Shown here: positions 20,729-38,886 of the stretch, in pieces
How positions within the stretch are numbered: the first letter of the stretch is position 1
How the letters are laid out: every line of letters begins with the position of its first letter
Assembly: GCF_004339765.1 (NCBI RefSeq)
Contig: NZ_SMGO01000002.1
Span: 310,001 to 374,000, forward strand
DNA: 64,000 bases
Source: Albibacterium bauzanense
GTDB taxonomy: Bacteria; Bacteroidota; Bacteroidia; Sphingobacteriales; Sphingobacteriaceae
Reading direction: 5' to 3'
The notes under the pieces: model-generated
Seen by the model: the letters and a program-made list of their open reading frames with translations, nothing else
Databases searched by the model: none
What the model was told of the DNA's origin: nothing
Program-made: the position numbers and the translations under genes

Positions 20729-22081
20729 ATGAACAAATTCTTCGAGGAAATAGAAAAATTGCTTTACCTCACCAGAAACTATGGTGTAGACAATTATATA
20801 AAAAGAGGTGGAAACAAAGATGAAATCAATCCTTATGAATTTTGTAAGTTTTCAAATTTTGGATTTAAAAAAGCCCAACTAAAAGTTTTAGAATTATTAC
20901 GGAAAGAGGCTGAAGTTAAAATGGAAATCAAAAGTAATCTATCTGAAGAACGTTTAAAAAAAGCTAAAGATCAGTTAAAAATAAAACAAATCCAGACTGA
21001 TTTGAAATTGTCAGAAATGAGGGAAGGGTTATTGAGACATGTCATTGATTCAATTGCTTGGCAAATATACGGTGGAAAGAGAGAAATCATGGGACGATAT
21101 TACATGGAAGAAGAAGGAGCAACTTCTATTACTGATGAAGGATTTGAAGCTACTTTAGCCTTAGCAAATAAAATAAATGCTGATCCAACAAAATTTGCAT
21201 TAATTACTGATTTAACAGAAAACATACAAATAGGAGATTTACATGTTTGGTCTCCTAAAGGAATTGATATAATTGAGGTGAAAACAGGAGAGAAAAACAG
21301 AATAGCAATTGAACTATTTGGATTCTATGATACCAATAATCTTAATCCAACAGAATGTATAGAAAGAATTGACGATGCAAAAATGAGAAAGCAAATGCAA
21401 AGAATGCAGAGTCAAAAAGAGAAAATGAAAAAGACGAAAAGGATCTTGAATAAAGATTCAGGGGAATACCAAAAAAATCCTGAGTCAAGAGTCGAAATTC
21501 ATGAGTCTCACTTTCAACAAGAAACATACCATAGTAAGATTTTAGCCTTGATAGAGAAATCCAAAGAAAAAGGTTGGGCTTATGAATCTATTGGGGCAAT
21601 AGTAAATGTTGGTGTTTATCGTGATAACTGGAGATTTGGTGCAGGAAAGGAGGCTTTACTTGAAAGTAATAGAGGATACCAAATAATAGATATAAGAGAA
21701 TGTACGGGGTTCACAATAGGGGAACCTCTTCTTTGCAAACCGTTCCCTGATAAGATAATAATGGATATTATCAAAGGAAATATCATCATTTATATTGGTG
21801 TAGATTTACAACGGGTTATTGATTTTGGTAATGACATTGGAGGTTCAATGAGGTGGTCAACCAAAAAAGAATTACACGATATGAAAACTACTTCACCTCT
21901 AAAAGGTAGAGAGATTATTTCCCATAACAATCGTGGTGTAATAATGGCTGAATCTAAAAATGGAAAGGCCTTTATGGGAGGTGGGTTTATTTGCCGACTA
22001 GTTTTCGACCATTTACATCCTTGGATTGAGATAGCAAATAGAGTTCATACTTATCAAAATGAAATCGAAGACGAAGAATAA
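20729..22081 (+). CDS. Putative PD-(D/E)XK nuclease-like protein, unknown family
   Basis: This 450-aa cargo protein belongs to no family I can name. A nuclease signature is visible: GDLHVWSPKGIDIIEVKTG places D170, E183 and K185 in the D...ExK spacing of PD-(D/E)XK enzymes. N-terminal residues 40-105 are helical and charged; a basic region (~215-245, RKQMQRMQSQKEKMKKTKR) could bind nucleic acid. The C-terminal half is mixed alpha/beta. Lys/Asn/Ile-rich composition suggests AT-rich foreign origin. It lies 94 bp upstream of another nuclease-like gene. A defence role is inferred from context. Confidence 0.6.
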   Translation: MNKFFEEIEKLLYLTRNYGVDNYIKRGGNKDEINPYEFCKFSNFGFKKAQLKVLELLRKEAEVKMEIKSNLSEERLKKAKDQLKIKQIQTDLKLSEMREGLLRHVIDSIAWQIYGGKREIMGRYYMEEEGATSITDEGFEATLALANKINADPTKFALITDLTENIQIGDLHVWSPKGIDIIEVKTGEKNRIAIELFGFYDTNNLNPTECIERIDDAKMRKQMQRMQSQKEKMKKTKRILNKDSGEYQKNPESRVEIHESHFQQETYHSKILALIEKSKEKGWAYESIGAIVNVGVYRDNWRFGAGKEALLESNRGYQIIDIRECTGFTIGEPLLCKPFPDKIIMDIIKGNIIIYIGVDLQRVIDFGNDIGGSMRWSTKKELHDMKTTSPLKGREIISHNNRGVIMAESKNGKAFMGGGFICRLVFDHLHPWIEIANRVHTYQNEIEDEE

Positions 22082-22175
22082 ATAGAGCTGAGAACAAAAT
22101 ACATGACGATCAGAGACCCTATCCGTCGCAAATCGAGAACATTTTTAGTCATGCTAACTCAACAATCGTATCAAA

Positions 22176-25100
22176 ATGAATGAAAGAAAATTTCCTACTC
22201 CTTCTCAATTTTACAGACACCGAAGACCAGAATACTTTTCTGATTCAAAGATTGTAGCAAAAGCTATTTTACCAAGAGAACAATTAGATTATGAGCTTAG
22301 TCAGATCTCTGTAAATCAAAAGCATGATAACTTTGAAACTTTGTGTAGAAAACTGGCTGAAAAACTAATCTCACCAAATTTAATTCCTCAAGTAGGTCCA
22401 ACTGGAGGTGGCGATGGAAAAACAGATTCAGAAACTTATCCTGTTTCGAACTTTATTTCAGATAGATGGTTTGTCGGTGATAACAAATGGAATGAAAATG
22501 AAAATTGGGCTTTTGCGATAAGTGCAAAAACGGATTGGAAACCTAAAGTAAAATCTGATGTCAAAAATATTGTAGACACAAAAAGAGGTTACACTAAAAT
22601 ATTCTTTTTCTCCAATCAAAAAATATCCAGTAAAAAGAAAAAGGATACTCAAGACCAAACAAAGATTGATTACAATATTGAGCTTATTATTTTAGATGCT
22701 GAATGGATACTTGAAAATGTTTATAGCAGCCGCCTATTAAATGATGTAATAGAATCATTGAATTTATCAAGAACATATTTAGAAGAAAAAACCATTGGTT
22801 CTAGAGATACAGAAAGATTAAATCAACTTGAAGAATTAGAGAATCAAATTAACTCTCCAAGTCGATTTTTAGAAATTGATTTTCAATTAATTGAGGACTG
22901 CCTTGAAAGTGCTATAATTTCAAGAATGTTAGAACTTCCAATGGCCGAAGTTATTGGAAGGTTTCAACGCGCATTAAAATTCGCACATAAACTCAATAAT
23001 ATTCAATTAAATATTAGAGTTCATTATCAATTTGCTTGGACATTAATCAATTGGTATGACGATTATAAATCGTTCTATAATGAATTCTTAAATGTAAAAG
23101 AATTAGTCCAGAATGAACCTAATCTGAACAATCTAGAATTTTATTTAAACCTATCAAACATTCTTAAAACAATTTCCAGTATTGACGAAGTTAAAGAAGT
23201 ACTTGTAATCGATAACGAAAAAGAAGATCAAGATTTTATAACGTTTATAATTCAATGTAGTCAAAATAAAGATAAACCATCAACTTCTCTCCTTGCTAAA
23301 TTTCATTTATCATTCTTTCAAATAAGAAAAAAATTAGAAAATGGAATATCTGTTTCTGATGAATTGATAAAGCTTAAAGACTACTTTGAATTAAGTAGAA
23401 ATCATTTAGATATACGATTTGAGCAACTAAAAGACATTATTAATGTTTATGGCGAAATCCTTCCTGATAACAACGACTTTGACAATTTGATTGATGTCAT
23501 TGCAGAAATAGAAGCTACTAGAATATCTGAATTAACTTCTGGTCAAACATATTTAAGTAGAGGTGTTATTAAATTACAAAATAATCTTAATAAGGAAAGT
23601 CTTGTATATTTTGGTAAAGCCGCAAGGAAACTCGCAAAAGATGAAACTCAAATGGAGTTCTATTATTGTTTAATGCTCTTAAGTGAAGCATATTCAAAAC
23701 TAGACCTTTATTGGGCATCATATAATGCTTTAGTAACTGCAACCAACATTTTTGCGAATAATTGGTACACAACAGGAAATTTAAGCCCTAATTTCCTCAA
23801 GGGTGTTGAGAAAATACTTAAGAATGAAGCTATAATAGGAAGAGTTCCTGTACTATTATGTTGGTATGAACTATATTCTGTCTTGAAACGATATTTTCAG
23901 CAAAAAAATGATAATAATAATCTTGAAGACATCCCAACGGAGCATTTGACTGACGCGTGTTTATCTATTAGATTATTAAATATGAGATTTAAAGATTTTG
24001 ATGTTTTAAAATCTTTGCCTGATATTTTTAAAATAAATGAACTGTGGCTAAGTGAGGATGCTGCTTTATATTTATTAGGAAATGAAGACTTGATTGAATT
24101 AGATGAAACAAAAACATCATTAAGAAAAGAGAATTTTCCGGAATACTATAACAAATTTGCTAATCAGCCTTTTGTTGAACAAATTGCCTATGAAACTAAT
24201 TTTTTAAATTCTCAAGAAGTTTCTATTGAAAGTCAAATTCTTGGAATAAAACTTAAAATCACATTTTCACGGAATCCGAAATTATTAATACTAGCAGAAA
24301 ATATACTTGCGTATTTTGAATCATTCCTTGCAACTTCATTTGAGGAAGCTTTTCCAATATCAGAAAACATAAATGTAAATATTGATCTTGAAGAAATTGA
24401 CACTAAGTTCAAAATAGAGGTTATTAATAAAAACTTTATCACAATACATGTAAAAAGTTCAATTGTATTTAGTAGGAGAAATTTTAAAGAACTTATAGAC
24501 GAACTACTTCCTCAAGTTATAGGAGGAAATTATATGTTCAAAGACATCGAACAGTTTTTCGACAGCCTATTTAACAAAGATGAAGTCCATGAAAGATTAT
24601 CTTTAATTTTGGAACATCATAATTTCTTGACTAACGTTTTATCTAACAAACCAAAATTCTTTTTGGAAAACTGGGTAAACAATCAAGTTTCAGAATATAA
24701 ATTATTAAGAACTGAATCTCCTATTTTAATAGATAAGGAATTACAGAAGTTACCTGAAAAAGAAGAAACGGAAGGAAATCCAAAGTTTAAAAACATTTCA
24801 CATAAAAAAATAAAAGCCGAAACTATAATTAATACTGAATTATGGGATAATGCTCAATGGAAAGCTTTTGGATTTTTTGCTTCTCAAGAAATCCCGTTTG
24901 GGATAACTTTATTATTTGAAAACGGCGATTATGGACGAAAAATATTTGAAGAATGGATAACTAATTATGGGAAAAATGATATTAACAACATCATTTCCAT
25001 TACAATTATAAAAGGAATTGATAAAAACAACCCCTACTGGTATAAAGTATTGGTTTGCAAAAATGTAAATAAAAACTTATATAAAGATGGTAATCTGGTG

Positions 25101-25409
25101 TCAATCTCATCTAGATTCCATCGAATGGAACCAGCTAATTACACAAATCTTAATAAGATTACCAAAGGTTATGAAACATTTAAAAAGTATTATCTGATTC
25201 CTTCATATATCGATAGTAATTATAAAATATCACCCTATTTAGATTTAGGAATCCTAAAAACAGAATTAAAGATAATTGACGCTTGGAAAATCGGAATACA
25301 TGACATTGAAAAAGCTGTAATCACTGATGAGGATGACCCAATTATTCCAAATGGAGTCATTGATGCACCAATACTTGAGGTTCTAAAAGAAAAAAAGTTG
25401 AATATTTAA
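22176..25409 (+). CDS. Large putative restriction-type protein, nuclease-like N-terminus plus helical repeats
   Basis: The 1077-aa product starts with a region like Mrr/PD-(D/E)XK enzymes: FETLCRKLAEKLISPNLIPQVGPTGGGDGKTD (acidic D80/D84) followed by WAFAISAKTDWKPKVKSDVKNI with K118, where the usual E/Q two residues before the lysine is S. Residues ~210-600 are mostly helical and TPR-like (for example LYWASYNALVTATNIFANNWY). The C-terminal ~250 residues are mixed alpha/beta. No Walker motif is seen. Its composition is strongly AT-rich. The fold suggests a sensor-nuclease defence protein, but the nuclease assignment is tentative. Confidence 0.6.
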   Translation: MNERKFPTPSQFYRHRRPEYFSDSKIVAKAILPREQLDYELSQISVNQKHDNFETLCRKLAEKLISPNLIPQVGPTGGGDGKTDSETYPVSNFISDRWFVGDNKWNENENWAFAISAKTDWKPKVKSDVKNIVDTKRGYTKIFFFSNQKISSKKKKDTQDQTKIDYNIELIILDAEWILENVYSSRLLNDVIESLNLSRTYLEEKTIGSRDTERLNQLEELENQINSPSRFLEIDFQLIEDCLESAIISRMLELPMAEVIGRFQRALKFAHKLNNIQLNIRVHYQFAWTLINWYDDYKSFYNEFLNVKELVQNEPNLNNLEFYLNLSNILKTISSIDEVKEVLVIDNEKEDQDFITFIIQCSQNKDKPSTSLLAKFHLSFFQIRKKLENGISVSDELIKLKDYFELSRNHLDIRFEQLKDIINVYGEILPDNNDFDNLIDVIAEIEATRISELTSGQTYLSRGVIKLQNNLNKESLVYFGKAARKLAKDETQMEFYYCLMLLSEAYSKLDLYWASYNALVTATNIFANNWYTTGNLSPNFLKGVEKILKNEAIIGRVPVLLCWYELYSVLKRYFQQKNDNNNLEDIPTEHLTDACLSIRLLNMRFKDFDVLKSLPDIFKINELWLSEDAALYLLGNEDLIELDETKTSLRKENFPEYYNKFANQPFVEQIAYETNFLNSQEVSIESQILGIKLKITFSRNPKLLILAENILAYFESFLATSFEEAFPISENINVNIDLEEIDTKFKIEVINKNFITIHVKSSIVFSRRNFKELIDELLPQVIGGNYMFKDIEQFFDSLFNKDEVHERLSLILEHHNFLTNVLSNKPKFFLENWVNNQVSEYKLLRTESPILIDKELQKLPEKEETEGNPKFKNISHKKIKAETIINTELWDNAQWKAFGFFASQEIPFGITLLFENGDYGRKIFEEWITNYGKNDINNIISITIIKGIDKNNPYWYKVLVCKNVNKNLYKDGNLVSISSRFHRMEPANYTNLNKITKGYETFKKYYLIPSYIDSNYKISPYLDLGILKTELKIIDAWKIGIHDIEKAVITDEDDPIIPNGVIDAPILEVLKEKKLNI

Positions 25410-25630: not shown

Positions 25631-28324
25631 ATGAACATCTTTCAAATCGAAAAAAACATTGAAGGTTTAATGACCAACTTTGATGAGGAAACCTTTGTCT
25701 ATGATTTCTTGCTAGCCTATGGAACAACCAAAGCAGCAGTAAAGCGATTGAAAGATGGGGGACTGAATCTTTCTAAGCAACCCGATGAGTTACTCTGGAA
25801 AAAGAAGCTTCATTTTAAAGAAAGCAAAGAAGAGAAGGATCTATATTCTCAAATTGAGGATTTAAAACTAGCTGACAATACATTACGTCATCAACCAAGG
25901 TTCATCATTGTAACGGATTATAAAAAACTACTGGCTATTGATACCAAGACCAAAGACAGTCTTGATATTGCTTTTAATGAACTTAATAAGCACTTCGACT
26001 TTTTCCTTCCTCTGGCGGGCATGGAAAAAGCCACTTATCAAAATGAAAACCCTGCAGATGTAAAAGCGGCGGAGAAAATGGCTCGCTTATATGATGAAAT
26101 TCTAAAAGATAATCCAACTCAATCATCAGAAGAAGTTCACGCCCTTAACGTTTTTCTATCCAGAATTCTGTTCTGCTTTTTTGCAGAGGATACCGATATT
26201 TTTTCTAAAAGTCAATTTACAAATGCACTCACTTCCCACACTCGCGAAGATGGGAACGATTTACAAACTTACTTTGAAGGCTTATTCCAAACATTAAATA
26301 CCAAGGATAGAAAAGATCTACCTAGTTATTTCGAAAAGTTCCCCTATGTAAATGGCGGACTTTTCAGAGAGAATCATCCTATTCCAATTTTTACTAGACG
26401 AAGCCGGCAAGCTATTATAGATAGCGGAAGTTTAGACTGGAGTGCGATCAATCCTGATATTTTTGGATCAATGATCCAAGCGGTAATAACGCCAGAACAT
26501 CGTGGAGGTTTGGGAATGCATTACACTTCCGTCCCTAACATCATGAAGGTTATCGAACCTTTATTTTTAGATGAACTAAAAGAGGTGTTTGAAAAATCAA
26601 AAGCCAATAAGAACAAACTAGAACAATTACTGATTCGCCTTACTAAAATTAAAGTTTTTGACCCCGCCTGTGGATCTGGGAACTTTTTAATTATCGCCTA
26701 TAAAGAACTGCGGAAACTCGAAATGAAGATCATTAAGCAGATTGACAAACTAACGGGGCAGCAAAGTATGTCTTTTAGCAGGATTAGCTTAAACCAGTTT
26801 TATGGGATTGAACTGGACGATTTTGCCCATGAAATTGCTTCCCTTTCCTTATGGCTTGCCGAACATCAAATGAACGTGGCATTCTTCAATGAATTCGGTA
26901 GAAGTACGCCGGCCCTTCCATTAAAAGATGCAGGTGAAATTGTTCATGGCAATGCTACCCGATTGGATTGGGAAGATGTTTGTCCAAAAACGGATAAGGA
27001 TGAGATATATCTTTTGGGAAATCCACCGTATAAAGGTTTTTCTCAACAAGATAAATCTCAAAAAGAAGACTTGTTTAGAATCCTAAATTCCAAAACGAAG
27101 CTTGACTATATTGCATGTTGGTTCATAAAAGGTGCTGAATACATATTAAACTTTAATATAAAAATGGCCTTTGTTTCAACTAATTCCATTTGTCAAGGAG
27201 AACAAGCCACTTTACTATGGGCTGATATTCTTAAGAAAAATGTTGAAATCAATTTTGCTTTTCAATCTTTTAAATGGGCCAACAATGCTAAAAGCAAAGC
27301 TGCTGTAATCTGTGTAATAGTAGGGTTACGAAATATTTCTAAAGAAATTAAAGTTCTGTATAAGGGAATGCATCGCGGAGTCGTTAAGAATATCAATCCA
27401 TATCTTATTGATTCTGATAATGTTTTTATACAGAAAAGAACCAAACCCCTATCTTCATTTCCTTTAATGGTTCTTGGAAATATGCCCTATGATAGAGGAA
27501 TCCTACATTTTTCAGAAGAAGAATATAGAGGTATATCCGTTACATCACCTGAATCAATTAGATATTTAAAAAAAATAGTAGGTTCCCAAGAATATATCAA
27601 TGGTTTCTATAGGTATTGTATCTGGATAGAAAACGAACAATTGAATGATGCAATGAAAAATGATCTTATTAGGGATAGAATAATACAAAATAAGGAAACT
27701 AGACTTTTATCAATAGATAGTGGGGTTAGAAAATTAGCAACCAAACCTCATCAATTTAGAGAAATGAGAGTTGCTGAGAGCCATTCTCTTATTTTACCAG
27801 GTACTTCATCTGAAAGAAGAGATTATATTCCTGTAGGATACTTAGATAATGATACCATCATAAATAATTTGGCATTTGCTATTTATGATCCTAGTAACTA
27901 CATATTAGCCATAGTTGCTTCAAGAATGCATATGACATGGGTAAGAACAGTTGCTGGCAGGCTGAAGAGCGATTACCGCTATTCGTCCGTTCTATGCTAC
28001 AACACCTTTCCTTTTCCAAAGATCAACGATTCTCAGAAACAGGAACTTGAAAAACATACTTATCGAATCCTAGAAGAAAGAGAAAAACATTCAGAAAAAA
28101 CACTAGCTCAGCTTTACGATCCTGATAAAATGCCAGAAGGTTTACGTGAAGCACATCATCAAAATGATCTAGCAGTAGAACGCTGCTATCGTAGTAAACC
28201 TTTTGAAAGTGATGAAGAACGATTAGAATATTTATTCAAGCTTTATGAAAAAATGATTGCCGAGGAGGAAGAAAAAAACACCTTATTTGCCAAAGAAAAG
28301 AAATCCAAGAAAGGAAGAAAATAA
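25631..28324 (+). CDS. MmeI/type IIG-like DNA adenine methyltransferase (class I SAM-dependent)
   Basis: The 897-aa product has a gamma-type N6-adenine methyltransferase core: motif I DPACGSGNF (344-352) and catalytic NPPY (464-467). The N-terminal ~300 residues (FIIVTDYKKLLAIDTKT, then ADVKAAEKMARLYDEI, NVFLSRILFCFFAEDT) match the leading region of MmeI-like or BREX-like methyltransferases; a nuclease motif there is at best degenerate (DTK). A target-recognition region follows (~600-800). It overlaps the next gene by 1 bp (TAATG). With the helicase and GIY-YIG genes downstream it is probably the modification and recognition subunit of one system. Confidence 0.85.
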   Translation: MNIFQIEKNIEGLMTNFDEETFVYDFLLAYGTTKAAVKRLKDGGLNLSKQPDELLWKKKLHFKESKEEKDLYSQIEDLKLADNTLRHQPRFIIVTDYKKLLAIDTKTKDSLDIAFNELNKHFDFFLPLAGMEKATYQNENPADVKAAEKMARLYDEILKDNPTQSSEEVHALNVFLSRILFCFFAEDTDIFSKSQFTNALTSHTREDGNDLQTYFEGLFQTLNTKDRKDLPSYFEKFPYVNGGLFRENHPIPIFTRRSRQAIIDSGSLDWSAINPDIFGSMIQAVITPEHRGGLGMHYTSVPNIMKVIEPLFLDELKEVFEKSKANKNKLEQLLIRLTKIKVFDPACGSGNFLIIAYKELRKLEMKIIKQIDKLTGQQSMSFSRISLNQFYGIELDDFAHEIASLSLWLAEHQMNVAFFNEFGRSTPALPLKDAGEIVHGNATRLDWEDVCPKTDKDEIYLLGNPPYKGFSQQDKSQKEDLFRILNSKTKLDYIACWFIKGAEYILNFNIKMAFVSTNSICQGEQATLLWADILKKNVEINFAFQSFKWANNAKSKAAVICVIVGLRNISKEIKVLYKGMHRGVVKNINPYLIDSDNVFIQKRTKPLSSFPLMVLGNMPYDRGILHFSEEEYRGISVTSPESIRYLKKIVGSQEYINGFYRYCIWIENEQLNDAMKNDLIRDRIIQNKETRLLSIDSGVRKLATKPHQFREMRVAESHSLILPGTSSERRDYIPVGYLDNDTIINNLAFAIYDPSNYILAIVASRMHMTWVRTVAGRLKSDYRYSSVLCYNTFPFPKINDSQKQELEKHTYRILEEREKHSEKTLAQLYDPDKMPEGLREAHHQNDLAVERCYRSKPFESDEERLEYLFKLYEKMIAEEEEKNTLFAKEKKSKKGRK

Positions 28325-29967
28325 TGGAAGAACTTTTAAATCAATTGTTACAGTCGGATACAGAAAGCGAGATTCTTGAGTTTAAGGAAGCCAGGGGTCA
28401 GTATGATAAAAATAAATTGGGCAAGTATTTTTCAGCATTGAGCAATGAAGCTAATTTGAAAAATAAAACTTGTGCGTGGTTGCTTTTGGGGATTGATAAT
28501 AACAAACAAATCGTAGGTACATCTATTACGGATGCACAATTGAACGACTATAAAGCTGAAATAGCATTTCATACTTCTCCTTCACTTAATTTCAGGGATG
28601 CTTACCGAGTTGATGTTGAGAACAAGAAAGTGATTATGTTAGAAATTCCCGCTGCACCGCAAGGCATTCCAGTTGCCTGGAAGGGGCATTATTATGGTCG
28701 GGATGGGGAAAGCTTAGGAGGGTTAAACATAGAAGAGCTGGAGCGGATACGCAATCAGGCAAGGGTCTTTGATTGGAGCGTTCAGCTTGTCCGTGGAGCT
28801 TCTATCAATGATCTTTCTGAAGAAGCGATTGCAAAAGCCCGTGTTCAGTTTGCGGAGAAAAATCACTCCCTAAAAGATGAAATGGCAAAATGGGATAATA
28901 TTACTTTTCTAAACAAGGCAAAAGTTACTATTAATGGTCAGATTACCAATACTGCAATTTTATTGTTGGGAAAAGCAGAGTCTGAGCATTTTATCAGTCC
29001 TGCTACTTCAAAAATTACTTGGATATTGAAAGACCGCGATGGAATAGAAAAAGATTATGAGCATTTTACTTGTCCCTTATTTTTAAGTGTTCAACAGGTT
29101 TATGGCAAAATCAGAAATATAAAATATAGGTATTTACAAGAAGGGACTTTATTTCCGGATGAAGTAAACCAGTTTGAGCCTTATATTATTCGAGAGGCAT
29201 TGAATAATTCGATTGCCCATCAAGATTATATGTTGGGAGGGAAAATACTAGTGATTGAGCGAGAGGACGGCGTGCTTACATTTTCTAATTCAGGTAGTTT
29301 TATTCCTCGATCAATAGAGAAAGTGATTGCTGCAGATGCTCCTGAAAATCGCTATAGGAATCCTTTTCTAGCGAATGCCATGGTTAATTTAAATATGATT
29401 GATACCATTGGGAGTGGTATTAAAAAGATGTTTGTGATTCAAAAGGATAAATTCTTTCCCCTACCTGAATATGATCTATCCAATCAAAAAGTAACCGTGA
29501 GTATTACTGGTAGAATTGTAGATGTCAACTATGCTCGTAAGCTGGCCCAATTGCCCGACCTACGGTTGACAGAGATTATTTTACTTGACAAGGTTGCTAA
29601 GAATAAACCTATAACGGACCCCGAGGTTCGGCAATTAAAAGCGAAGAAGCTTATTGAGGGGAGAAAGCCTAACTTTCATATTTCTGCGGGTTTAGCCAAA
29701 GGCTCCGGACAAGAAGTCGATTATATCAAAATGAGAGGAATCGATGATGACTATTATATGAAGCTTATTGAGGATTATTTATTAAAGTTCAAAAAAGGAA
29801 CTAGGAATGATTTTGAAAATATGCTTCTTGATAAGTTGCCCGACGTTCTCTCTGTGGTTCAAAAAAAGACCAAAGTAAAAAATCTCCTGCAAAAACTAAA
29901 AACACAAGGGAAGATTGAAACTGATAAAAAAAGACAGTGGGTTAGACGGGAGTTAGACGAGATTTAG
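28324..29967 (+). CDS. AlbA_2/Schlafen-type, RecG-like ATP-binding regulator
   Basis: The 547-aa product has an N-terminal AlbA_2 (Slfn) domain (~11-130, ESEILEFKEARGQ ... GIPVAWKGHYYGRDGES), a GHKL-like ATP-binding domain (~275-395, IIREALNNSIAHQDY, FSNSGSF, GSGIKKMF) and a C-terminal winged-helix region. Relatives are annotated as putative transcriptional regulators or RecG-like proteins and often sit inside restriction systems. It is coupled to the upstream methyltransferase. Its stop codon lies within a tandem 11-bp repeat, and sequence resembling its C-terminus continues in the next intergenic region. Confidence 0.8.
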   Translation: MEELLNQLLQSDTESEILEFKEARGQYDKNKLGKYFSALSNEANLKNKTCAWLLLGIDNNKQIVGTSITDAQLNDYKAEIAFHTSPSLNFRDAYRVDVENKKVIMLEIPAAPQGIPVAWKGHYYGRDGESLGGLNIEELERIRNQARVFDWSVQLVRGASINDLSEEAIAKARVQFAEKNHSLKDEMAKWDNITFLNKAKVTINGQITNTAILLLGKAESEHFISPATSKITWILKDRDGIEKDYEHFTCPLFLSVQQVYGKIRNIKYRYLQEGTLFPDEVNQFEPYIIREALNNSIAHQDYMLGGKILVIEREDGVLTFSNSGSFIPRSIEKVIAADAPENRYRNPFLANAMVNLNMIDTIGSGIKKMFVIQKDKFFPLPEYDLSNQKVTVSITGRIVDVNYARKLAQLPDLRLTEIILLDKVAKNKPITDPEVRQLKAKKLIEGRKPNFHISAGLAKGSGQEVDYIKMRGIDDDYYMKLIEDYLLKFKKGTRNDFENMLLDKLPDVLSVVQKKTKVKNLLQKLKTQGKIETDKKRQWVRRELDEI

Positions 29968-29995
29968 ACGAGATTTAGACGAGATTTAGACGAGA
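29942..29995 (+). repeat. Tandem 11-bp repeat across the 3' end of the AlbA_2 gene
   Basis: The unit TTAGACGAGAT is present about five times, the first imperfect (TTAGACGGGAG). The stop codon at 29965 is inside it. Since 11 is not a multiple of 3, each frame meets TAG within the array, so unit gain or loss would only slightly change the protein end. A degraded copy (TTTAGACGAGTA) recurs at about 30049. Confidence 0.85.
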
Positions 29996-30522
29996 ATGCA
30001 ATTAACTACCTGACAGCCAATCTTCTATATATCTTTAAACGTGTTCTGTTTAGACGAGTAATGAATGATAAATTTGCTGTTAGACAAATATTTTTGAAGA
30101 TTCGCTTAAAAGAAGTAGATTGAGAAATCATTAATGTTGAAAGGAAAAAGTAAAGTACCAAGATAACGTATTGTCCTAAGTCTGCATATCAGACAGTTAT
30201 ACTTTGTCTTCCTGATCTACGTACCAAGATGACTTCATTTACGTACTAAGATGGTACTTTGTTATTGACAAAGATGGTATGGAAATGTTTTTGAAAGGGC
30301 TTGCTAAGGGCTCAATTCTTAACTAATCAACAACGAACAATTTACTAATCATTTGTATATCAATGGCTAACATAAAGAACAAAGGGCTCACTAAGGGCTC
30401 AAATAAATAAGATGAAAATAAAGAGGGACCAAGATGGCTTCAAGTACGTACCAAGATGTTATAAATTAAACCGATCTTGAGTTGAGAACTTCTTAATACT
30501 TGATTATTAATTCAAATAAATT
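29968..30522. other. Repeat-rich intergenic region upstream of the helicase gene
   Basis: This 555-bp stretch has no intact gene but has repeated words. The core ACGTACCAAGATG or variants occur at about 30154, 30219, 30241, 30425 and 30446. A 22-bp word (AAAGGGCT-3 nt-TAAGGGCTCAA) occurs at 30294 and 30381. One frame around 30219-30327 reads MEMFLKGLAKGSILN before a stop, and another ends KGLTKGSNK, so it may be decayed duplicate coding sequence from the upstream gene's C-terminus. A regulatory role is also possible. Confidence 0.55.
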
Positions 30523-32445
30523 ATGCCCGATATTGTAAACGTAACCTATCACCAAACTGGACAGAGCACCCAAACCAATACAATGGGGATGCGCGAAATG
30601 CAAGAGAAAGCTTTTGAAAAACGTGATGCCCAGTATTTATTACTAAAAGCACCTCCTGCTTCTGGTAAATCACGTGCATTGATGTTTCTAGCATTAGATA
30701 AGCTGATCAATCAAGGAATAAAGAAAGTAATTGTAGCAGTCCCAGAACGATCCATTGGAGCTTCTTTTAGAAGCACCAAATTATCAGATTATGGCTTTTT
30801 TGCCGATTGGGAACTCAATCCGCAATATAATCTCTGCACACCGGGAGCAGATGGCAGCAAAAGTAAAGTTCAATCATTTACGAACTTTATGGAGAATGAT
30901 GAAAAAATTCTAATCTGCACACATGCCACGCTCCGTTTTGCTTGTGACGGAATAGATGAGTCAGTTTTTAATAATACACTAATTGCAATTGATGAATTCC
31001 ATCACGTTTCTGTAGATGCAGACAACCGTTTGGGTGAGGTATTGAAAGGAATAATGCAGAAATCAACGGCTCATATTATTGCGATGACAGGTTCCTATTT
31101 TCGTGGGGATAGCATTCCTGTTCTTTTGCCTGAAGATGAAACCAAATTCGAAAAAGTCACCTACGATTACTATCAGCAATTAAATGGATACGAGTATTTA
31201 AAATCCCTGGGGATTGGGTATCATTTCTACCAAGGGAAATATGCTTCTGCTATTATGGAAGTATTGGATACTACTAAGAAAACCATTCTGCATATTCCAA
31301 ATGTAAATGCAGGGGAGTCTACCAAAGATAAATATGAGGAAGTAAATACCATTCTGGATGCCATCGGGGATGTAGACCATGTTGATGATCACGGCATCAT
31401 CCACCTAAGAAGAAATCTGGACGGCAAAATTATTAAGATTGCAGATTTGGTAACCGATTATAATGATCGAGATAAAAGGGTTGCTTATCTCAGAGATATC
31501 GAGGAGCCTGAAGATATGGATTTAATCATCGCTTTAGGAATGGCAAAAGAGGGCTTTGACTGGCCTTTTTGCGAACATGCCTTAACGGTTGGTTATCGTG
31601 GCTCCTTAACAGAGATTATTCAAATTATTGGCCGCTGTACACGTGACAGCTCAAATAAAACACACGCACAGTTTACCAACCTAATTGCGGAGCCAGAAGC
31701 TACTCAGGATGATGTGAAGCTTTCGGTTAATAATATGTTGAAGGCCATTACTGCATCTTTATTAATGGAGCAGGTTTTGGCCCCTAGTTTTAAATTTAAA
31801 ACAAAGCGAAGTGATGATGATATTGCCGGCCCTGGAGAAATTAAGATACGAGGACTAAAAGAACCAACGTCCCAACGTGTTCGTGATATTATTGAAACAG
31901 ACTTGAATGATTTAAAAGCTACAATTCTTCAAGACGATACCATGTTGAAAGCAATGCCTGGCAATTTAGATCCAGAAGTGATCAATAGGGTACAAATTCC
32001 AAAAATCATCCAAATCAAATATCCAGACCTTAGAGATGAAGAGGTGGAAGAGCTAAGGCAACATGTGGTGGTAGATTCGGTTATTCGAGCAGCTGAAATC
32101 ACAGAATCAGGCGGCAAGCGCTTTATTAAAATGGCCGACAAGTTTGTTAATATTGACGACCTCCATATCGATTTGATTGATCGTATCAATCCTTTTCAAA
32201 GAGCTTTTGAAGTATTATCCAAATCGGTTACAACAAATGTATTAAAGCTGATTCAGGAAACCATCAATGCGAATAGAATACAAGTTAGTGAAGAGGAGGC
32301 CGTAGAAGTTTGGCCTAAAATAAAGGATTTTGTTGGCACTTATAATCGTGAGCCTAGCATTGCCTCTTTAGATCCTTTGGAAAAAAGAATGGCAGAAGTA
32401 TTGACTTATATCCGCGATCAAAAGCGAAAAATGCAAACTTCATGA
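30523..32445 (+). CDS. DEAD/DEAH-box (SF2) helicase of an R-M-like system
   Basis: The 640-aa product has SF2 motifs: Walker A KAPPASGKS (~42-50), motif Ia VAVPERS, motif II DEFH (157-160), motif III MTGSYF, and motif VI EIIQIIGRCTRD. It resembles the translocase/helicase subunits of restriction systems rather than repair helicases. The C-terminal ~40 residues (IKDFVGTYNREPSIASLDPLE then KRMAEVLTYIRDQ) resemble a segment near the N-terminus of the following nuclease. It overlaps that gene by 4 bp (ATGA), suggesting the two work as a complex. Confidence 0.85.
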   Translation: MPDIVNVTYHQTGQSTQTNTMGMREMQEKAFEKRDAQYLLLKAPPASGKSRALMFLALDKLINQGIKKVIVAVPERSIGASFRSTKLSDYGFFADWELNPQYNLCTPGADGSKSKVQSFTNFMENDEKILICTHATLRFACDGIDESVFNNTLIAIDEFHHVSVDADNRLGEVLKGIMQKSTAHIIAMTGSYFRGDSIPVLLPEDETKFEKVTYDYYQQLNGYEYLKSLGIGYHFYQGKYASAIMEVLDTTKKTILHIPNVNAGESTKDKYEEVNTILDAIGDVDHVDDHGIIHLRRNLDGKIIKIADLVTDYNDRDKRVAYLRDIEEPEDMDLIIALGMAKEGFDWPFCEHALTVGYRGSLTEIIQIIGRCTRDSSNKTHAQFTNLIAEPEATQDDVKLSVNNMLKAITASLLMEQVLAPSFKFKTKRSDDDIAGPGEIKIRGLKEPTSQRVRDIIETDLNDLKATILQDDTMLKAMPGNLDPEVINRVQIPKIIQIKYPDLRDEEVEELRQHVVVDSVIRAAEITESGGKRFIKMADKFVNIDDLHIDLIDRINPFQRAFEVLSKSVTTNVLKLIQETINANRIQVSEEEAVEVWPKIKDFVGTYNREPSIASLDPLEKRMAEVLTYIRDQKRKMQTS

Positions 32446-33947
32446 GAGAAAAGAAAACTCTAGCCGATATTTTTGCTGATGATCCATTCAATTTACTGGA
32501 TGTAAAAAAGATAAGTACTCAAGCTATAACAGCGGATGAACGTCTATTGGAATCATTCAATGAGATCAATGTATTTTATGGTAAAAATCAACGTGAACCT
32601 CAGTCTGGAAAAGGAATACAGGAGCATCGATTGGCTGCACGATTAAAGAACCTGAGAGAAGATTCAGAGAAAGCTTCCTCACTAGCAGGAGCAGATGAAT
32701 ATCATCTATTAGAAGTCAAAGAGAAGAAAGTTGAAAGCATTGCTGATATCTTTTCTGATGATGGTTTTGGGTTGTTGAATAACGATGCAGATGATATTTT
32801 TAATTTGAAGCATGTTACTAGTCCCGAGGAAAGAGCCAAAGCAGACTTAGTAGCCCATCGGAAGAAATGCCTAAATTTTCAAGAGTATGAAGCACTCTTT
32901 AAAAGCTGTCATCAAGAACTTAAAGACAAGAAAAGAAAAGTCGTTCCCTTTGTTGAGAAAAGTCTGGACAAAGGCGTATTCTTTGTTTTAAGTGGGATCA
33001 TTGGCTATGTGGAAAGTATTTTGGAAACATACAAAGATGAGTTTGGCAAGATAGATGGGCGAACCCGTATCATTTTTGAAAATGGAACAGAATCCAATAT
33101 GCTTTTTCGTTCCTTGATCAAAAGGCTATATGAAGACGGGAAGTTAATCACCGAGCATCAAGATAACTATTTGAACCCCTTGCGTTCGATCACAGAGGAA
33201 GATCAAGAATCGGGTTTTATTTATATTCTCAAATCAAAAAGTGATCGTCAGGAAATAACATCAATTCCTCATTTATACAAAATTGGTTATTCAAAAGGAG
33301 CAGTTGAAGAACGAGTTAAGAATGCTGCACAGGATCCAACTTATTTAATGGCACCAGTTGCAATCGTGACTGCTTTTAAATGCTATAATATGAATCCTCA
33401 AAAGCTGGAACAGTTACTCCATAATTTCTTTGGCTCTTCCTGCTTAAATGTGGATGTCATTGATGAACGAGGAAGGCGATCGGTACCCAGAGAATGGTTT
33501 ATTGCGCCATTAAATGTGATTGAGGAAGCCATTCAGATGATCGTATCGCGCGAAATTGTCCATTATCGTTACGATGCCAATAGACAGGAAATAAGAGCTA
33601 GAGAGTCCTTTGATAAAACCCGGCGGGCATTAAGCATCCGTCAACCTTATGCTGAACAAATTATGCGTGGCTTTAAAAAGGAGGAGTATAGAGGTATTCC
33701 GACCAATATTAGAGGCCGTGTTTACATTTATGCTTCCAATACCTTGGCGGACATAGATGCTTCTTTACGCTTAGGTATAAAAAACGAGGATCTCCCAAGA
33801 GGAGTTTTGATTGGTTCTGTAGAAATTGTAGGTTGTGAAGGAAATAAAAGATTAGGATATGCTTGGATACTGGCTAATCCAGAACGTTTACCGGAACTGA
33901 TTAAACCAGTGAAGAAACCACAACCAGTTTGGTTTTATCCGTTTTAG
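32442..33947 (+). CDS. GIY-YIG nuclease fused to a C-terminal ASCH domain
   Basis: The 501-aa product has a T5orf172/MUG113-type GIY-YIG domain (~258-355): SGFIYILKS, LYKIGYSKGAVEERVKNA (R291) and VPREWF (E351). Residues ~396-501 form an ASCH domain (ALSIRQPYAEQIMRGFKK ... GRVYIYAS ... GVLIGSVEIVG). The N-terminal part repeats a short acidic motif, LADIFADDPFNLLD (8-21) and IADIFSDDGFGLLN (100-113). The likely role is the cleavage subunit of the methyltransferase-helicase cluster; ASCH domains bind nucleic acid, so this one may sense modified bases or RNA (inference). It overlaps the helicase gene by 4 bp. Confidence 0.85.
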   Translation: MREKKTLADIFADDPFNLLDVKKISTQAITADERLLESFNEINVFYGKNQREPQSGKGIQEHRLAARLKNLREDSEKASSLAGADEYHLLEVKEKKVESIADIFSDDGFGLLNNDADDIFNLKHVTSPEERAKADLVAHRKKCLNFQEYEALFKSCHQELKDKKRKVVPFVEKSLDKGVFFVLSGIIGYVESILETYKDEFGKIDGRTRIIFENGTESNMLFRSLIKRLYEDGKLITEHQDNYLNPLRSITEEDQESGFIYILKSKSDRQEITSIPHLYKIGYSKGAVEERVKNAAQDPTYLMAPVAIVTAFKCYNMNPQKLEQLLHNFFGSSCLNVDVIDERGRRSVPREWFIAPLNVIEEAIQMIVSREIVHYRYDANRQEIRARESFDKTRRALSIRQPYAEQIMRGFKKEEYRGIPTNIRGRVYIYASNTLADIDASLRLGIKNEDLPRGVLIGSVEIVGCEGNKRLGYAWILANPERLPELIKPVKKPQPVWFYPF

Positions 33948-34148: not shown

Positions 34149-36500
34149 TTAAAATTCTAAAAATGGCAAATCATCATTAATCTTTGTATCCTCAATATTA
34201 AATAGTCTATTAATTGTTAAAGTTTCATTCGCCACATCATAAGAATTTTCAATACTTTTAAGTAATGTTTCTTGAGTAGATTGAAGTGATAAATTCATTT
34301 GCAATTGATCATCATAATTAAATGAATATTCATTTATTGCTGGAGATGACTCTATATTAAGAAATTCATTCATTTTTGCTGCCGCTCGTTTTCTGGTTTC
34401 GATAAGTTGAATTAGTTCATCTCGCTTGATGATATTTTTCAAATTATATGTCTGTTCAATATAATATTCAAAACTGCTACTCCACGATTTATTAATATTA
34501 TTTTGAATTTTAGAGTAAAAATCTAGATTGTTAATTTTGGCTTCAGTAATAATAGACTTATATCGTTCCTGACTTGAAATCAACTTCGAGAATGCTTCTA
34601 TATGGTAATAATATGATATATCTTCAGAGAGGATTAACAACATATTCTCAATTGAGAAATTGAATTCATTCTCAATATTGTTATCTGCAATATAATCAAG
34701 TATTTCAATAAGGTTATACCGATCATCCCAACCAAGAGATATGGCTGACAAATTATTCATTATTTGAATCACTTTATGCTTTATATCTACCCATTTAAAG
34801 AGCTTAATCAGAACTGCTGCAACATGCAAATTCTTGTAAGTTCCAGCCCCTTTTAATTGTGGTAATCGCTCACTAAATGTTTTTAATAGCTTTTCATAAT
34901 TATTCCTTTCACCAAAATATATTCTCTTCGAATCTTGTTCTAGCTTCGTGGTAATCCGATCTCGAAACTGCCCAATTACAATCGCCGATTTTAAAATAAT
35001 AAAGTACTCTTCAATATTTTTATTGAAATAATTGTATAAAAAATCTTCAATTGATGGGTTTAAAAAGCGATACTGAATCGTCGTGTAATTTTTTTCTGTT
35101 TTGTGCACTCTATTTATAAAACCATCTAAAAGTTCCTTGACAACCTTATTGAATGTTCCAGATGTTTTTGTATAATTATTATTAGAAACTTCATACTCCA
35201 AGCGAATATCAAAGGCTTCTTTTAGATTTGATTCCTCAACAATATATCTACCGCCTAATGAATAAAGTGTAGATAGAAAGAATCTTGCCTCATTGGAAAT
35301 CTGCTTATTATATGACTTTTCCCATATTTTGGTTGGATCTTCCAAGAAGTCTAAAACTTCTTGACTATATTCTATCTCGGGCTGTAAACGTTCAATATCA
35401 GTAAAGAATTCAATAATACGGGGGTTATAATTCCTGTGAGTTATTACTTTCCAATAAAATTTGTCTTTAAAAAAAACAGCTTTTAATTCCTCAGAAAGAT
35501 TCGAAAAATATATATGGTGATATAGAATTTTTGCCTTATCTAGATTTCTATAGTTTTCGATTTTCACTTCATAATTAGAAACTTCCATTTTAGAGTTATC
35601 TATTTTTTCTGATTCCTCTTTAGCTTGTTTCAACAATGTTGTTCTACAAGTAAGAATAAGTCTTTTTGATTTATCTGATCTTATTTGATCAGTAAAATTC
35701 ACTATCGCTGAATCTGCATTTCTTGAACTTTTAAGATCTAATGTTGAGGCACCTAAAAAATCATCGAAGTAAAATACCTGTTTTTTATTTGGAAGATACG
35801 AATCCTCAGCCTCTCTAATTTCCCTTACATATACAAGTTCAAAGTCCTCTGCGAGTAATTGATAAGTTAGCATATTCGCCAAAGTAGTTTTGCCTATACC
35901 TGGCGCCCCAGTAATCAAAATAAAATTATTTTGATTTAAAATATCAACAGCGAGTTTATGGGTTATACTTGGAACAAATATTCGAATCTTGTCGTATATA
36001 TGTTTTTTAGTAAAATCTGATCTTCCCTTAACTCCATTATGAAGTATTCTTTTTAGCACTGCCGTTCCTGACAACCATAACTTGAAATGATTCTCTACGA
36101 CGGCTGGATTATTTCTCAAGAAATTATTTAAATCATTTTTGCCCAGTATGTCTGATGTAGATTTTATGTATGGATTGAAGATGATTTTGATTTCTGCCTT
36201 ACTCTGAGGACTGAGGGCTAACGAAGTAACAAAAATGTATCTCTGAGGGTTTAATTTAATTACTTTTTCAACTTCTTGCTTTTTTAATATGCTTTTTAAT
36301 TTTGTCAATCCAGAATCAAGAAAATGTTTTACCTGAACAATAATTTCATTTTCATTATTGTTTGATGCGTATCTTAAATCAATCCCCTTATCCTTTCCCG
36401 ATTTAAACGATTGAAAATCTGTCTCTAACTTAACAGAAAGTATATCCCGAACTAACTCTTCTAGGTCCTTATCGTTTAATGTTGAGAAATCATAACTCAT
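34149..36500 (-). CDS. Mrr-type nuclease/STAND NTPase fusion
   Basis: The 783-aa product has an N-terminal restriction-endonuclease domain (~1-115; GKDKGIDLRY with D41, then IIVQVKHF with Q56-x-K58). A STAND-type P-loop NTPase follows: Walker A GAPGIGKT (198-205) and Walker B VFYFDDF (242-248). The C-terminal ~400 residues are helical and probably a sensor. The architecture matches nSTAND3/Avs-like immune proteins that cleave DNA after detecting a phage trigger. It starts 7 bp after the SMC-like ATPase gene on the same strand, so it probably belongs to the same operon; whether it is a functional fourth component is unknown. Confidence 0.8.
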   Translation of the reverse strand: MSYDFSTLNDKDLEELVRDILSVKLETDFQSFKSGKDKGIDLRYASNNNENEIIVQVKHFLDSGLTKLKSILKKQEVEKVIKLNPQRYIFVTSLALSPQSKAEIKIIFNPYIKSTSDILGKNDLNNFLRNNPAVVENHFKLWLSGTAVLKRILHNGVKGRSDFTKKHIYDKIRIFVPSITHKLAVDILNQNNFILITGAPGIGKTTLANMLTYQLLAEDFELVYVREIREAEDSYLPNKKQVFYFDDFLGASTLDLKSSRNADSAIVNFTDQIRSDKSKRLILTCRTTLLKQAKEESEKIDNSKMEVSNYEVKIENYRNLDKAKILYHHIYFSNLSEELKAVFFKDKFYWKVITHRNYNPRIIEFFTDIERLQPEIEYSQEVLDFLEDPTKIWEKSYNKQISNEARFFLSTLYSLGGRYIVEESNLKEAFDIRLEYEVSNNNYTKTSGTFNKVVKELLDGFINRVHKTEKNYTTIQYRFLNPSIEDFLYNYFNKNIEEYFIILKSAIVIGQFRDRITTKLEQDSKRIYFGERNNYEKLLKTFSERLPQLKGAGTYKNLHVAAVLIKLFKWVDIKHKVIQIMNNLSAISLGWDDRYNLIEILDYIADNNIENEFNFSIENMLLILSEDISYYYHIEAFSKLISSQERYKSIITEAKINNLDFYSKIQNNINKSWSSSFEYYIEQTYNLKNIIKRDELIQLIETRKRAAAKMNEFLNIESSPAINEYSFNYDDQLQMNLSLQSTQETLLKSIENSYDVANETLTINRLFNIEDTKINDDLPFLEF

Positions 36501-36507
36501 AGGAAGA

Positions 36508-38886
36508 CTAATTAAATGTGGATTCTAAAACGATGGTTTGAACATTTTGAATTTCTGTATTCATTTCAAATTTATCAAACTTATATTTCATATAGCGTGA
36601 AGTAAAGTCATCATGAGTAGACATTATTATTTGATAATCCTTGAATTCATTTCGAACAAGTTCAATGAAAGTGTGAATATTTAAATCATCCATAGTTTGA
36701 ACAGGGTCATCTATCGATAAGAACTTGAAATTTTCGTTGGTATTATAAACTTTATTTAATGATAAACAAAATGCTAATGATACGACAGCCATTTGGCCCG
36801 AGCTCAGATGGTAAACAATATCGTGATCAGAAGAATGACCAGTCTTAAAACGTACATTGTTACTTAATCCAGTAGGGTGGATTTCAACAAAAATCCCCAA
36901 ACCTTGTTGATAGCTTTGAAGGATTTTTCCTGAATAGATGTAAAATGGCACTTTGATTTTTTCAATCAATTCAACCTTATGTTCTTGAATACTCTTATGT
37001 ACTTTATCATAAATTGAAGTAATGTGTTGAAGCAAATTAGATAGTTTTTGCTCACGAGATTCTAAGAAAGTTAATCTTGAATTTGCTATTTGTGCATACG
37101 ATCCTAAAATATATTGAGATTTGGCAACTATCATTTCAATCGTTATTTCAGAGAATTTAGTCCGATCCGCATCAAAATAATGAACGTATAATTGCTTGTT
37201 ATCAATTAACTGTTCATTATATAATAGTTCTGATAACAGGTCTCTTTCAAGGAAGGCTTTGAGTAAGGCTCTTTTCTCACTAATCTCCGCCATTGTTTTT
37301 GGTGATTGGGAGAAATCTATTGCCTTCATTCCCGAACTGCCAAGTATAGCATAGATAGCGAAAATTTCTTCCGTTTTTTCCTTCAAAGCAGAATATTCCC
37401 TGAGTAATGCAAGAACAGGCTGTTCTGTTATATTATTTGCAGCTATAAATTCTGTAGCTGATTCTGTTAATCTTGAATGGAAAATTTTTATTTGTTCTTC
37501 AAGATTAGTTTTTGTTTGCAACTTCTCTGAGCTATAAACTTGTAATGAGGTGGTTTTAATGTTTATTGCTTGTTCTAAGAATTCAAATGATTCGAAATTT
37601 GTATCGCATAATGGACAATTAGTGTCTGAAACATGTTCGGTATGTTTTATTTTTTTAAATTCTTCAAGTGTTTGGTTTCGGCTAGAATTTATTTCTGATA
37701 TTATTTTGCCAATGTCACCTAGGTCACGATTAATTGCTTTAATATCTCTTTCAATTATAGCGTAAGCCGTGTATTCTTCTGGACTTGCTAAGAATGAATC
37801 GAAATATTCCTTTGATATAAATGCTGTGTTTGGGGATTGAAGAAAATTATTGGCTTGGCCAATTTTTGAATTGATTGCTTCTATATTAGCTATAAGTTCA
37901 TCCGTATATATATTCCTAATTAAAATTGCGTTTAAAATCTGCTGATTGGAAAGTACTTCATCATTAAGTTTTTTGTACTTAATGGATTTTTCATATTCGT
38001 CAGGAGAAAAGTTGTTTTTCAGAATTGTTAATGAAGCGAGTATATCCTGGAAAGATTTAAGCTGTTCTATAGCGGTGTTTAGCTGGATGAATGGTTTTTC
38101 TTTATCAAAGTCGAAATCTTTCTCCTTAAATAGCTTTTCATAATCGCCACTTTGTGTATCGGGTAAGGATTTTCTTAGTTGTTCTAATTCTTGGTTAATT
38201 AATGTCTGTTGACGGATTAAATTACTCTTCAATTCGAGAAGCTTTTGTTTTTCCGCCTCTTCCTTTTCAATATTAAAGAGAAAACCTAATGATGCACCTT
38301 TATCGTCCTCATTTTTACGTAAAAAATAGATACTATCCGCTTGCTGGATATAGTTAAAAAGATAATAGATGGATGCTAAATCTACGGTTGAATCTACTCC
38401 ATAGAATAGATTATTTATTTCTGTTTGCCGAACGGGTGAAAGGGTTGAAAAGTTATCCTCCGTAAAATGAGTTGAATCTGTCGTAAGATAGGTAGTGAAA
38501 ATATTTCTAGCATCAGCAGGAATAAAGTCTCTACCATGATCTATTTTGGTAGGTGATTCACCATCGTCGTAATATTTAATAATAATATGATCAATATTTG
38601 TGGTAGAATTATGAACCCATAATTTGAGTATTACGTTCTCTCCATCTGTGTTTTGAAAAAATGGCTTATTTTTGTTATTATTTTTCTTTTGGACATGATC
38701 AAATAATTCAACTCTCTTGAATTCGCCAGTAAGACAGATTTCAATTATATCAAATATGGTTGTTTTACCAAATCCATTGGGTCCTGATAGAATATTCACA
38801 TGAGTTTCTGCAATATCAAAATGAAAAACCGTTTTCGGTTTAATTCCCTTGAAGTTTTCAAGAGATATTTTTTTAACTTTAATCAT
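36508..38886 (-). CDS. Rad50/SMC-like ABC ATPase of an ABC-three-component (Lamassu-like) system
   Basis: The 792-aa product has Walker A GPNGFGKT (35-42), a long central coiled-coil region with one CPLC (424-427) resembling a Rad50 zinc hook, the ABC signature LSSGQ (694-698), Walker B/D-loop FLSIDDPVQTMDD (722-734) and a switch histidine in STHDD. This is the SMC-type ATPase expected to sense or tether DNA in ABC-3C/Lamassu defence. It overlaps the upstream small gene by 8 bp and is followed after 7 bp by the nuclease-STAND gene. Confidence 0.85.
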   Translation of the reverse strand: MIKVKKISLENFKGIKPKTVFHFDIAETHVNILSGPNGFGKTTIFDIIEICLTGEFKRVELFDHVQKKNNNKNKPFFQNTDGENVILKLWVHNSTTNIDHIIIKYYDDGESPTKIDHGRDFIPADARNIFTTYLTTDSTHFTEDNFSTLSPVRQTEINNLFYGVDSTVDLASIYYLFNYIQQADSIYFLRKNEDDKGASLGFLFNIEKEEAEKQKLLELKSNLIRQQTLINQELEQLRKSLPDTQSGDYEKLFKEKDFDFDKEKPFIQLNTAIEQLKSFQDILASLTILKNNFSPDEYEKSIKYKKLNDEVLSNQQILNAILIRNIYTDELIANIEAINSKIGQANNFLQSPNTAFISKEYFDSFLASPEEYTAYAIIERDIKAINRDLGDIGKIISEINSSRNQTLEEFKKIKHTEHVSDTNCPLCDTNFESFEFLEQAINIKTTSLQVYSSEKLQTKTNLEEQIKIFHSRLTESATEFIAANNITEQPVLALLREYSALKEKTEEIFAIYAILGSSGMKAIDFSQSPKTMAEISEKRALLKAFLERDLLSELLYNEQLIDNKQLYVHYFDADRTKFSEITIEMIVAKSQYILGSYAQIANSRLTFLESREQKLSNLLQHITSIYDKVHKSIQEHKVELIEKIKVPFYIYSGKILQSYQQGLGIFVEIHPTGLSNNVRFKTGHSSDHDIVYHLSSGQMAVVSLAFCLSLNKVYNTNENFKFLSIDDPVQTMDDLNIHTFIELVRNEFKDYQIIMSTHDDFTSRYMKYKFDKFEMNTEIQNVQTIVLESTFN

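Follow-up and report, generated by a model that had tools for sequence, protein, structure and literature searches.

The 64,000-nucleotide stretch of Albibacterium bauzanense DNA analyzed here (hereafter the window) carries a four-gene cluster of restriction-modification (R-M) type. The four open reading frames (ORFs), all on the + strand, were confirmed at 25631-28324, 28324-29967, 30523-32445 and 32442-33947. ORF1 and ORF2 overlap by 1 bp and the helicase and nuclease genes by 4 bp; an earlier note on this DNA had described the same four genes and overlaps, and the ORF and Pfam analyses bear it out. The first gene (25631-28324) encodes an MmeI-family adenine methyltransferase with a fused target recognition domain, a lost nuclease triad and the predicted site GACGAG; it matched all five MmeI Pfam domains (MmeI_Mtase, 359 bits). 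The second (28324-29967) encodes an AlbA_2 (Schlafen) domain, a GHKL-like ATPase domain and C-terminal winged helices (Pfam SLFN_AlbA_2 and HATPase_c_4, plus a structure model), and its product is a putative regulator carried as cargo in a slot described below. The third (30523-32445) is a YeeB-type superfamily 2 helicase with PPASGKS, DEFHH, MTGSYFRG and GRxTRD stretches (alignment; DEAD/ResIII in Pfam, Helicase_C slightly below the cut-off). The fourth (32442-33947) is a YeeC-type GIY-YIG (T5orf172) nuclease, matched by T5orf172/MUG113, with a weak C-terminal ASCH domain (22.7 bits vs. a cut-off of 21.2). NCBIfam gave no above-cut-off name for any of the four proteins. The earlier note had all four classes right and made no mention of the MmeI family, the GHKL-type domain, the winged helices or the 555-bp repeat-rich gap (29968-30522), which parts the AlbA_2 gene from the helicase gene and holds two repeat families. 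In the main, the gene content points to a multi-subunit restriction-type locus in which separate proteins would mark, unwind and cut DNA, probably as a complex.

The helicase-nuclease core and its methyltransferase

A helicase-alignment scan of genome contigs gave at least 540 relatives, of which the best 80 were read with flanks of up to 10 kb; because the best 80 were taken, the linkage sample favors close kin. The nuclease gene was present in 79 of the 80 loci, the sole miss being a sequence cut off 2 bp past the helicase. Sixty-eight loci had the methyltransferase (67 upstream of the helicase, one downstream), and all 12 misses had <2.4 kb of upstream sequence. These counts demonstrate an association that is far from chance, and synteny of the core is conserved across phyla. 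Any helicase match was seen in 12 of 395 genomes of the phylum and in 263 of 72,556 plasmid records. Nuclease residues G258, Y261, K280, G282, R291, E323 and H327 were identical in 90 of 90 aligned sequences, and the helicase motifs were conserved in nine aligned sequences, two of these incomplete. The helicase profile had no match in a PDB sequence search. A search of the collected loci with the ASCH part of the nuclease (33600-33944) matched the window only. Of the 12 genomes with a helicase match, G215 (L148) has a mere methyltransferase fragment ahead of the helicase, and in G375 (L141, 3635-12080) SIR2, HerA and AlbA_2 genes directly precede the helicase and GIY-YIG genes.

This three-gene core of methyltransferase, helicase and nuclease is known, if little studied, and is of the DnmA-YeeB-YeeC type. 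The same three genes form dnmA(yeeA)-yeeB-yeeC of Bacillus subtilis (M.BsuPY79I), described in PMC7261158 and PMC9973331. There, too, an MmeI-like methyltransferase without the MmeI nuclease motif, a helicase and a GIY-YIG/T5orf172 nuclease are encoded on the same strand, and DnmA methylates GACGAG, the site also predicted here. The window differs in the inserted AlbA_2 gene and 555-bp repeat-bearing gap, and in the extra C-terminal ASCH domain of the nuclease. The earlier note had proposed a distinct multi-subunit system with a GIY-YIG cutter; the multi-subunit part stands, and the system is not a new one, since the DnmA-YeeB-YeeC core has already been described. The note's judgment that the cluster fits type I, type III, bacteriophage exclusion (BREX) and DISARM (defense island system associated with restriction-modification) poorly was upheld, and membership in all four was rejected, as their defining genes are absent among the eight genes scanned. 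These eight contained no Methylase_S or HSDR_N (HsdS/HsdR), no PglZ or BrxL and no DUF1998 (DrmB); PglX models matched the methyltransferase only, and weakly, and DrmMI models matched the methyltransferase only. The putative pairing of a modification arm with an ATP-dependent restriction arm resembles type I (HsdM/S/R), but here the recognition domain is fused to the methyltransferase and the GIY-YIG nuclease is a separate protein.

In an alignment with MmeI, whose D70, E80 and K82 are catalytic (PMC4833311), the window protein has E, K and S at these positions. We surveyed the triad in 120 MmeI-family methyltransferases, 77 near a helicase and 43 without one, many of them close kin and not independent. 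The D-E-K triad was absent in 72 of the 72 readable helicase-linked enzymes (five unreadable), whereas it was kept in 39 of the 40 readable enzymes without a helicase (three unreadable), the exception being L133 at a contig edge. These counts demonstrate triad loss beside the helicase; homologues consistently occurring alone as type IIG enzymes, which the earlier note had held would speak against its proposal, were not the pattern found. A tree of the methylase domain only (88 sequences: all 43 solo enzymes and a random 45 of the 77 linked ones) separated two groups: a 100/100 branch with 42 solo enzymes, and another branch with L133 and all 45 linked enzymes. Like MmeI and type IIL enzymes, the window protein has the five MmeI domains and specificity residues that can be read by the MmeI code; unlike them, it has E/K/S in place of the triad, does not qualify as a single-chain nuclease and falls on the separate branch. 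The nuclease function appears to have moved from the MmeI-like chain to a separate protein. Most likely the MmeI-like protein would retain recognition and adenine methylation, the latter predicted from sequence, with its own nuclease lost.

The recognition residues aligned with MmeI are D/R/E at position 1, L/M at position 2, G/N at position 3, L with a conserved R at position 4 and K/D at position 6. By the rules of PMC4833311 they read as G, A (K645M), C (N773), G, A, G, which gives the predicted site GACGAG, equal to that of B. subtilis DnmA. The C at position 3 is the weakest call because E751 is lost.

An exchangeable slot and its direct-repeat arrays

Where the methyltransferase precedes the helicase (67 of the 80 loci), the two genes were adjacent (<250 bp) in 34 and separated by 0.47-4.3 kb in 33. 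A profile search of the 33 filled slots found RhuM-type sequences in 11 and AlbA_2-type sequences in 11 (genes or gene pieces), with one locus holding both and 21 accounted for in total. A Pfam scan of 20 slot proteins added Fic, Abi_C, M78 peptidase with helix-turn-helix (HTH), KAP, and OLD-like (AAA_15) and RloC-like (AAA_13) ATPases as other cargo; several had no match. Examples are an RloC-like AAA_13 protein (L118, 6349-8967), an Abi_C protein (L093, 8359-9108) and a Fic-HTH protein (L084, 9022-9996). Among helicases 96% identical to one another, the slot was 986 bp long in L111 vs. 4 bp in L101 and L114; near-identical helicases with different slot content demonstrate that cargo is exchanged at one junction. 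The AlbA_2 gene is exchangeable cargo and not a core subunit. The earlier note had counted it as a component of the system, a claim that fails with the slot empty in 34 of 67 loci.

The AlbA_2 protein of the window is 547 residues long. Its structure model (mean predicted local distance difference test score 84, predicted template modeling score 0.61) shows a Schlafen-like domain at the N-terminus, a middle part resembling histidine kinases (Z about 8, in agreement with Pfam HATPase_c_4) and, at the C-terminus, a winged helix; judged by secondary structure, residues 401-455 may form a further winged helix. The nearest structure to the whole chain was 3lmm (Z 24.9, root-mean-square deviation 7.4 over 400). 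Of the Schlafen acidic motif, E14 is kept in 31 of 34 homologues and E19 in 32 of 34; the third acidic position is D in only three of the 34, with E in nine, H in nine, N in eight, K in three and gaps in two. The window protein has acidic residues at all three putative catalytic positions, E14, E19 and D58; in an alignment, D58 would correspond to SLFN11 D252.

Matches to this protein were found in 145 of 395 genomes of the phylum, mostly weak ones. Scanning 30 proteins beside chosen close homologues placed the AlbA_2 gene in several R-M contexts. Type I loci were arranged as hsdM-hsdS-AlbA_2-hsdR (L198) and hsdS-AlbA_2-x-hsdR (L204), with AlbA_2-x-hsdS in L199; the homologous gene between hsdS and hsdR in L198 is a further likeness to type I, and DarTG2 has been described between hsdS and hsdR (PMC12255303). 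BREX loci L209 and L210 had the order pglX-like methylase-AlbA_2-pglZ-brxL, and type III loci L211 and L212 methylase-AlbA_2-x-res. The order was helicase-AlbA_2-methylase in L218 and L220. In L201 and L200 the AlbA_2 gene lies ahead of methylase and helicase, a second AlbA_2 gene preceding in L200. On the Alphaproteobacteria plasmids L301 and L302 it is flanked by genes for a methyltransferase and a DEAD/DEAH helicase. A position between modification and restriction genes is therefore common, not universal.

In the window, the AlbA_2 gene is followed, ahead of the helicase gene, by the array TTTAGACGAGA. It is an 11-bp tandem direct repeat of the unit TTAGACGAGAT in 4.9 copies (about 29942-29996), which spans the AlbA_2 stop codon (29965-29967) and has GACGAG at 29956, 29967, 29978 and 29989. 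An isolated extra copy, TTTAGACGAG, lies at 30049-30058 with GACGAG at 30053. A second, unrelated repeat family with the core TACCAAGATG (TACGTACCAAGATG-type, about six copies) occupies 30155-30461 upstream of the helicase; sought upstream of other helicases, it was found in L123 only, in two copies. No match to a Bacteroidota-type promoter pattern lies just upstream of the helicase, and its 8 matches in the window vs. 4.9 expected are no excess. The TTTAGAC core of the window array also follows the close homologues L058, L059, L100, L142 and L197. More distant homologues had other units with a period of 10-12 (TAGAAGAGAT, TTATAAGAG, TTAAGAGAA, TTAGTCG and TGCAGAATAAA).

Array association was scored as the best direct-repeat score at lags 9-13 in the region from −40 to +240 of the stop codon against 200 shuffles, a pass meaning that at most 1/200 shuffles was equally good; close homologues were those over 290 bits with the 3′ end available. 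Eighteen of 37 close AlbA_2 homologues passed vs. 6 of 264 further genes in these loci, used as controls (Fisher p 4e-14), and two of the six passing controls (L211, L212) bear the AlbA_2 array motif itself. Helicase-adjacent methyltransferases without this AlbA_2 gene passed in 0 of 34 cases and methyltransferases followed by other cargo in 1 of 29. At loci lacking a close AlbA_2 homologue, the region upstream of the helicase passed in 5 of 29 cases: the far AlbA_2 loci L127, L081 and L105, the Fic-HTH locus L084, whose helicase is preceded by a 12-bp array (AAAATGTCCCT), and L066 with a HATPase/Fic-like gene. Passing loci include type I L198 and L204, BREX L210, type III L212 and, of the DnmA-YeeBC type, the window, L058, L104 and L100. 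Grouping at 75% identity left 21 clusters, of which 10 passed by their median member. Thirty of the 37 close loci were collected after the AlbA_2-array link had been noticed, and 14 of those 30 passed. With an earlier statistic, which took the best 8-mer allowing one mismatch, the contrast between groups was weaker (13 of 35 close homologues vs. 3 of 120 controls, from 253 available); the period-based score was adopted after that result was known. For the 14 homologues left from 21 with arrays after removal of near-copies, likeness of the array unit correlated with protein identity in the C-terminal (r 0.41, p 0.001) and middle parts (r 0.48, p 0.006), and not in the N-terminal domain (r 0.13, p 0.26). 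The array association of AlbA_2/GHKL/winged-helix genes is the new observation here; our search of the published literature, with bioRxiv preprints outside it, found no title, abstract opening or passage that describes arrays beside Schlafen/AlbA_2 genes.

Host island and neighboring genes

The cluster rides on a ~30-kb tRNA-Asp(GTC) island (12607-42690) between 17-bp direct repeats, the left one (12607-12623) being the 3′ end of tRNA-Asp and the right one lying at 42674-42690. The tyrosine integrase of the island is encoded at 12807-14201 on the + strand. The island also has an inner 26-bp repeat (12732 and 42606) and, besides the integrase, AAA_25, BT4734-like and MobA-like relaxase genes. 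The corresponding flanks in G001, of the same genus, are 4.7 kb apart vs. 34.8 kb in the window, about 30 kb being missing; the exact 17-bp repeat was not found at the matching place in G001. Directly upstream of the methyltransferase, at 20729-25409, are two large ORFs (450 and 1077 aa) with no Pfam match at E 0.01. A minus-strand set adjoins the cluster at 34149-40772 and comprises Mrr_cat-nSTAND3, an SMC-like ATPase (PADLOC LmuB), MComp1 and CTD1, resembling an ABC-three-component system. Outside the island, a 22-bp/11-bp tandem repeat (ACTGTTCAACC) lies at 46537-46594.

Possible roles of the AlbA_2 protein and its array

We consider it probable that the locus is a DnmA-YeeB-YeeC-type R-M system on an integrative island, whose slot holds an AlbA_2 protein and its cognate array as putative regulator and operator. 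The methyltransferase would recognize its site and protect host DNA, and the helicase with the GIY-YIG nuclease would form an ATP-dependent restriction arm that attacks unmodified sites, a division of labor resembling HsdM/S vs. HsdR in type I. The AlbA_2 protein may bind the array through its winged helices and control transcription of the helicase and nuclease genes, or of its own gene, tying restriction to a signal. A precedent is RptR, with 9-bp direct repeats by way of which it represses a type I island (PMC12255303). RptR is likewise a regulator acting via short direct repeats, but it is a 79-residue helical dimer, encoded first in its operon, that binds a palindrome, whereas the AlbA_2 protein is a multidomain protein encoded inside the operon. 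More tentatively, AlbA_2/GHKL/winged-helix genes with co-diverging 10-12-bp arrays might be a portable checkpoint cassette that enters systems as unrelated as DnmA-YeeBC, type I, type III and BREX, commonly between modification and restriction genes, and that would keep restriction in check until it is released by a signal from the cell or a phage, possibly the methylation state of the array.

Several observations weigh against the main reading. Genome G375 (L141) has the helicase and nuclease without an MmeI-family match at E 0.001, and PMC7261158 and PMC9973331 report no restriction or phage protection by the B. subtilis system. Nineteen of the 37 close homologues fail the array test, among them L142, L059 and BREX L209 (15/200). 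Among 12 far AlbA_2 genes, five pass, in part through A-rich runs. Of four plasmid records checked, three could be scored (L304 yielded no ORF long enough) and none passed (two at 2/200, one at 22/200). Nor do array-bearing homologues always sit between modification and restriction genes: the AlbA_2 gene stands ahead of both in L200 and L201, and at L223 and L224 its scanned neighbors encode pentapeptide-repeat proteins, with no restriction gene among them. The last array copy in the window is 464 bp ahead of the helicase start vs. ~115 bp or less in six measured relatives.

The chief rival explanation, which we regard as possible, gives the AlbA_2 protein a back-up role as a Schlafen RNase: once restriction has failed, it would kill the cell or arrest its growth, and the array would serve only to autoregulate this toxin. 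PMC12839542 presents Schlafen RNases that carry a minimal histidine kinase and a winged HTH, the domain order of the AlbA_2 protein, as back-up effectors; they serve BREX and related systems and occur in at least 1017 taxa. Some other slot cargo is of an abortive kind (Abi_C, Fic, RloC-like AAA_13 and OLD-like AAA_15). L209 and L210 place AlbA_2 homologues between the pglX-like methylase and pglZ; unlike those described here, the published effectors came with no mention of arrays in the accessible text. The conserved E14 and E19, with D58 in the window, also suit an RNase. Because the third acidic position is so seldom D, RNase activity is unlikely across the family, which does not count against the window protein with its D58, and arrays accompany the AlbA_2 gene in DnmA-YeeBC, type I, type III and BREX loci alike. 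Neutral slippage at gene ends is a known source of short tandem repeats, the first window units lie inside the coding end, and six control genes and some slots with other cargo score as well; we nevertheless find it quite unlikely as the origin of the arrays in view of the 18/37 passes vs. 6/264 controls and 0/34 helicase-adjacent methyltransferases, the isolated extra copies beyond the tandem run and units that track the middle and C-terminal parts of the protein. Still less plausible is an array acting as a methylation-gated switch, in which methylation of an operator containing the predicted site would report a modified genome. The code residues do predict the very GACGAG found in the array units, five of the ten GACGAG in the window lie within 103 bp of the slot (ten being no excess over the 8.7 expected in 64 kb), and DnmA binds methylated DNA poorly (PMC9973331). 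In the kilobase ahead of the helicase, however, GACGAG also occurs in L058 (four) and L059 (one), though their recognition residues differ, and is absent from L142, L104 and L100. Since related arrays do not track the specificity residues of the methyltransferase, the gate was dropped as a general rule and kept as a weak rival; the pattern suggests that GACGAG within the array unit is a coincidence.

Two further alternatives concern the core. It could be a decayed relic in which only the methyltransferase is still active, serving as an orphan regulator, a proposal already made for B. subtilis, where PMC9973331 gives no phage protection. We judge this unlikely with all four frames open, nuclease and helicase motifs intact and synteny kept across phyla; dnmA and yeeB deletions in Vibrio crassostreae rendered the cells more sensitive to certain phage subclades, but not to all (study cited in PMC9973331). 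PADLOC names the first protein REase_MTase_IIG (1037 bits), as would suit a self-contained type IIG/IIL enzyme with unrelated neighbors. That reading is hardly credible with the catalytic triad gone and the linkage to helicase and nuclease so strict, and a stand-alone type IIG enzyme was rejected on these two grounds.

The split of the MmeI family, with the nuclease kept in solo enzymes and lost beside a helicase and GIY-YIG nuclease, is an example of how a one-protein enzyme may become multi-subunit. It is clear for few restriction systems how, on arrival in a new host, they keep from cutting its DNA until modification has been completed. If the checkpoint proposal is true, a regulator family common to four classes of system, with many members beside their own array, would offer one testable answer across classes, and would recast proteins now labeled as back-up RNases.

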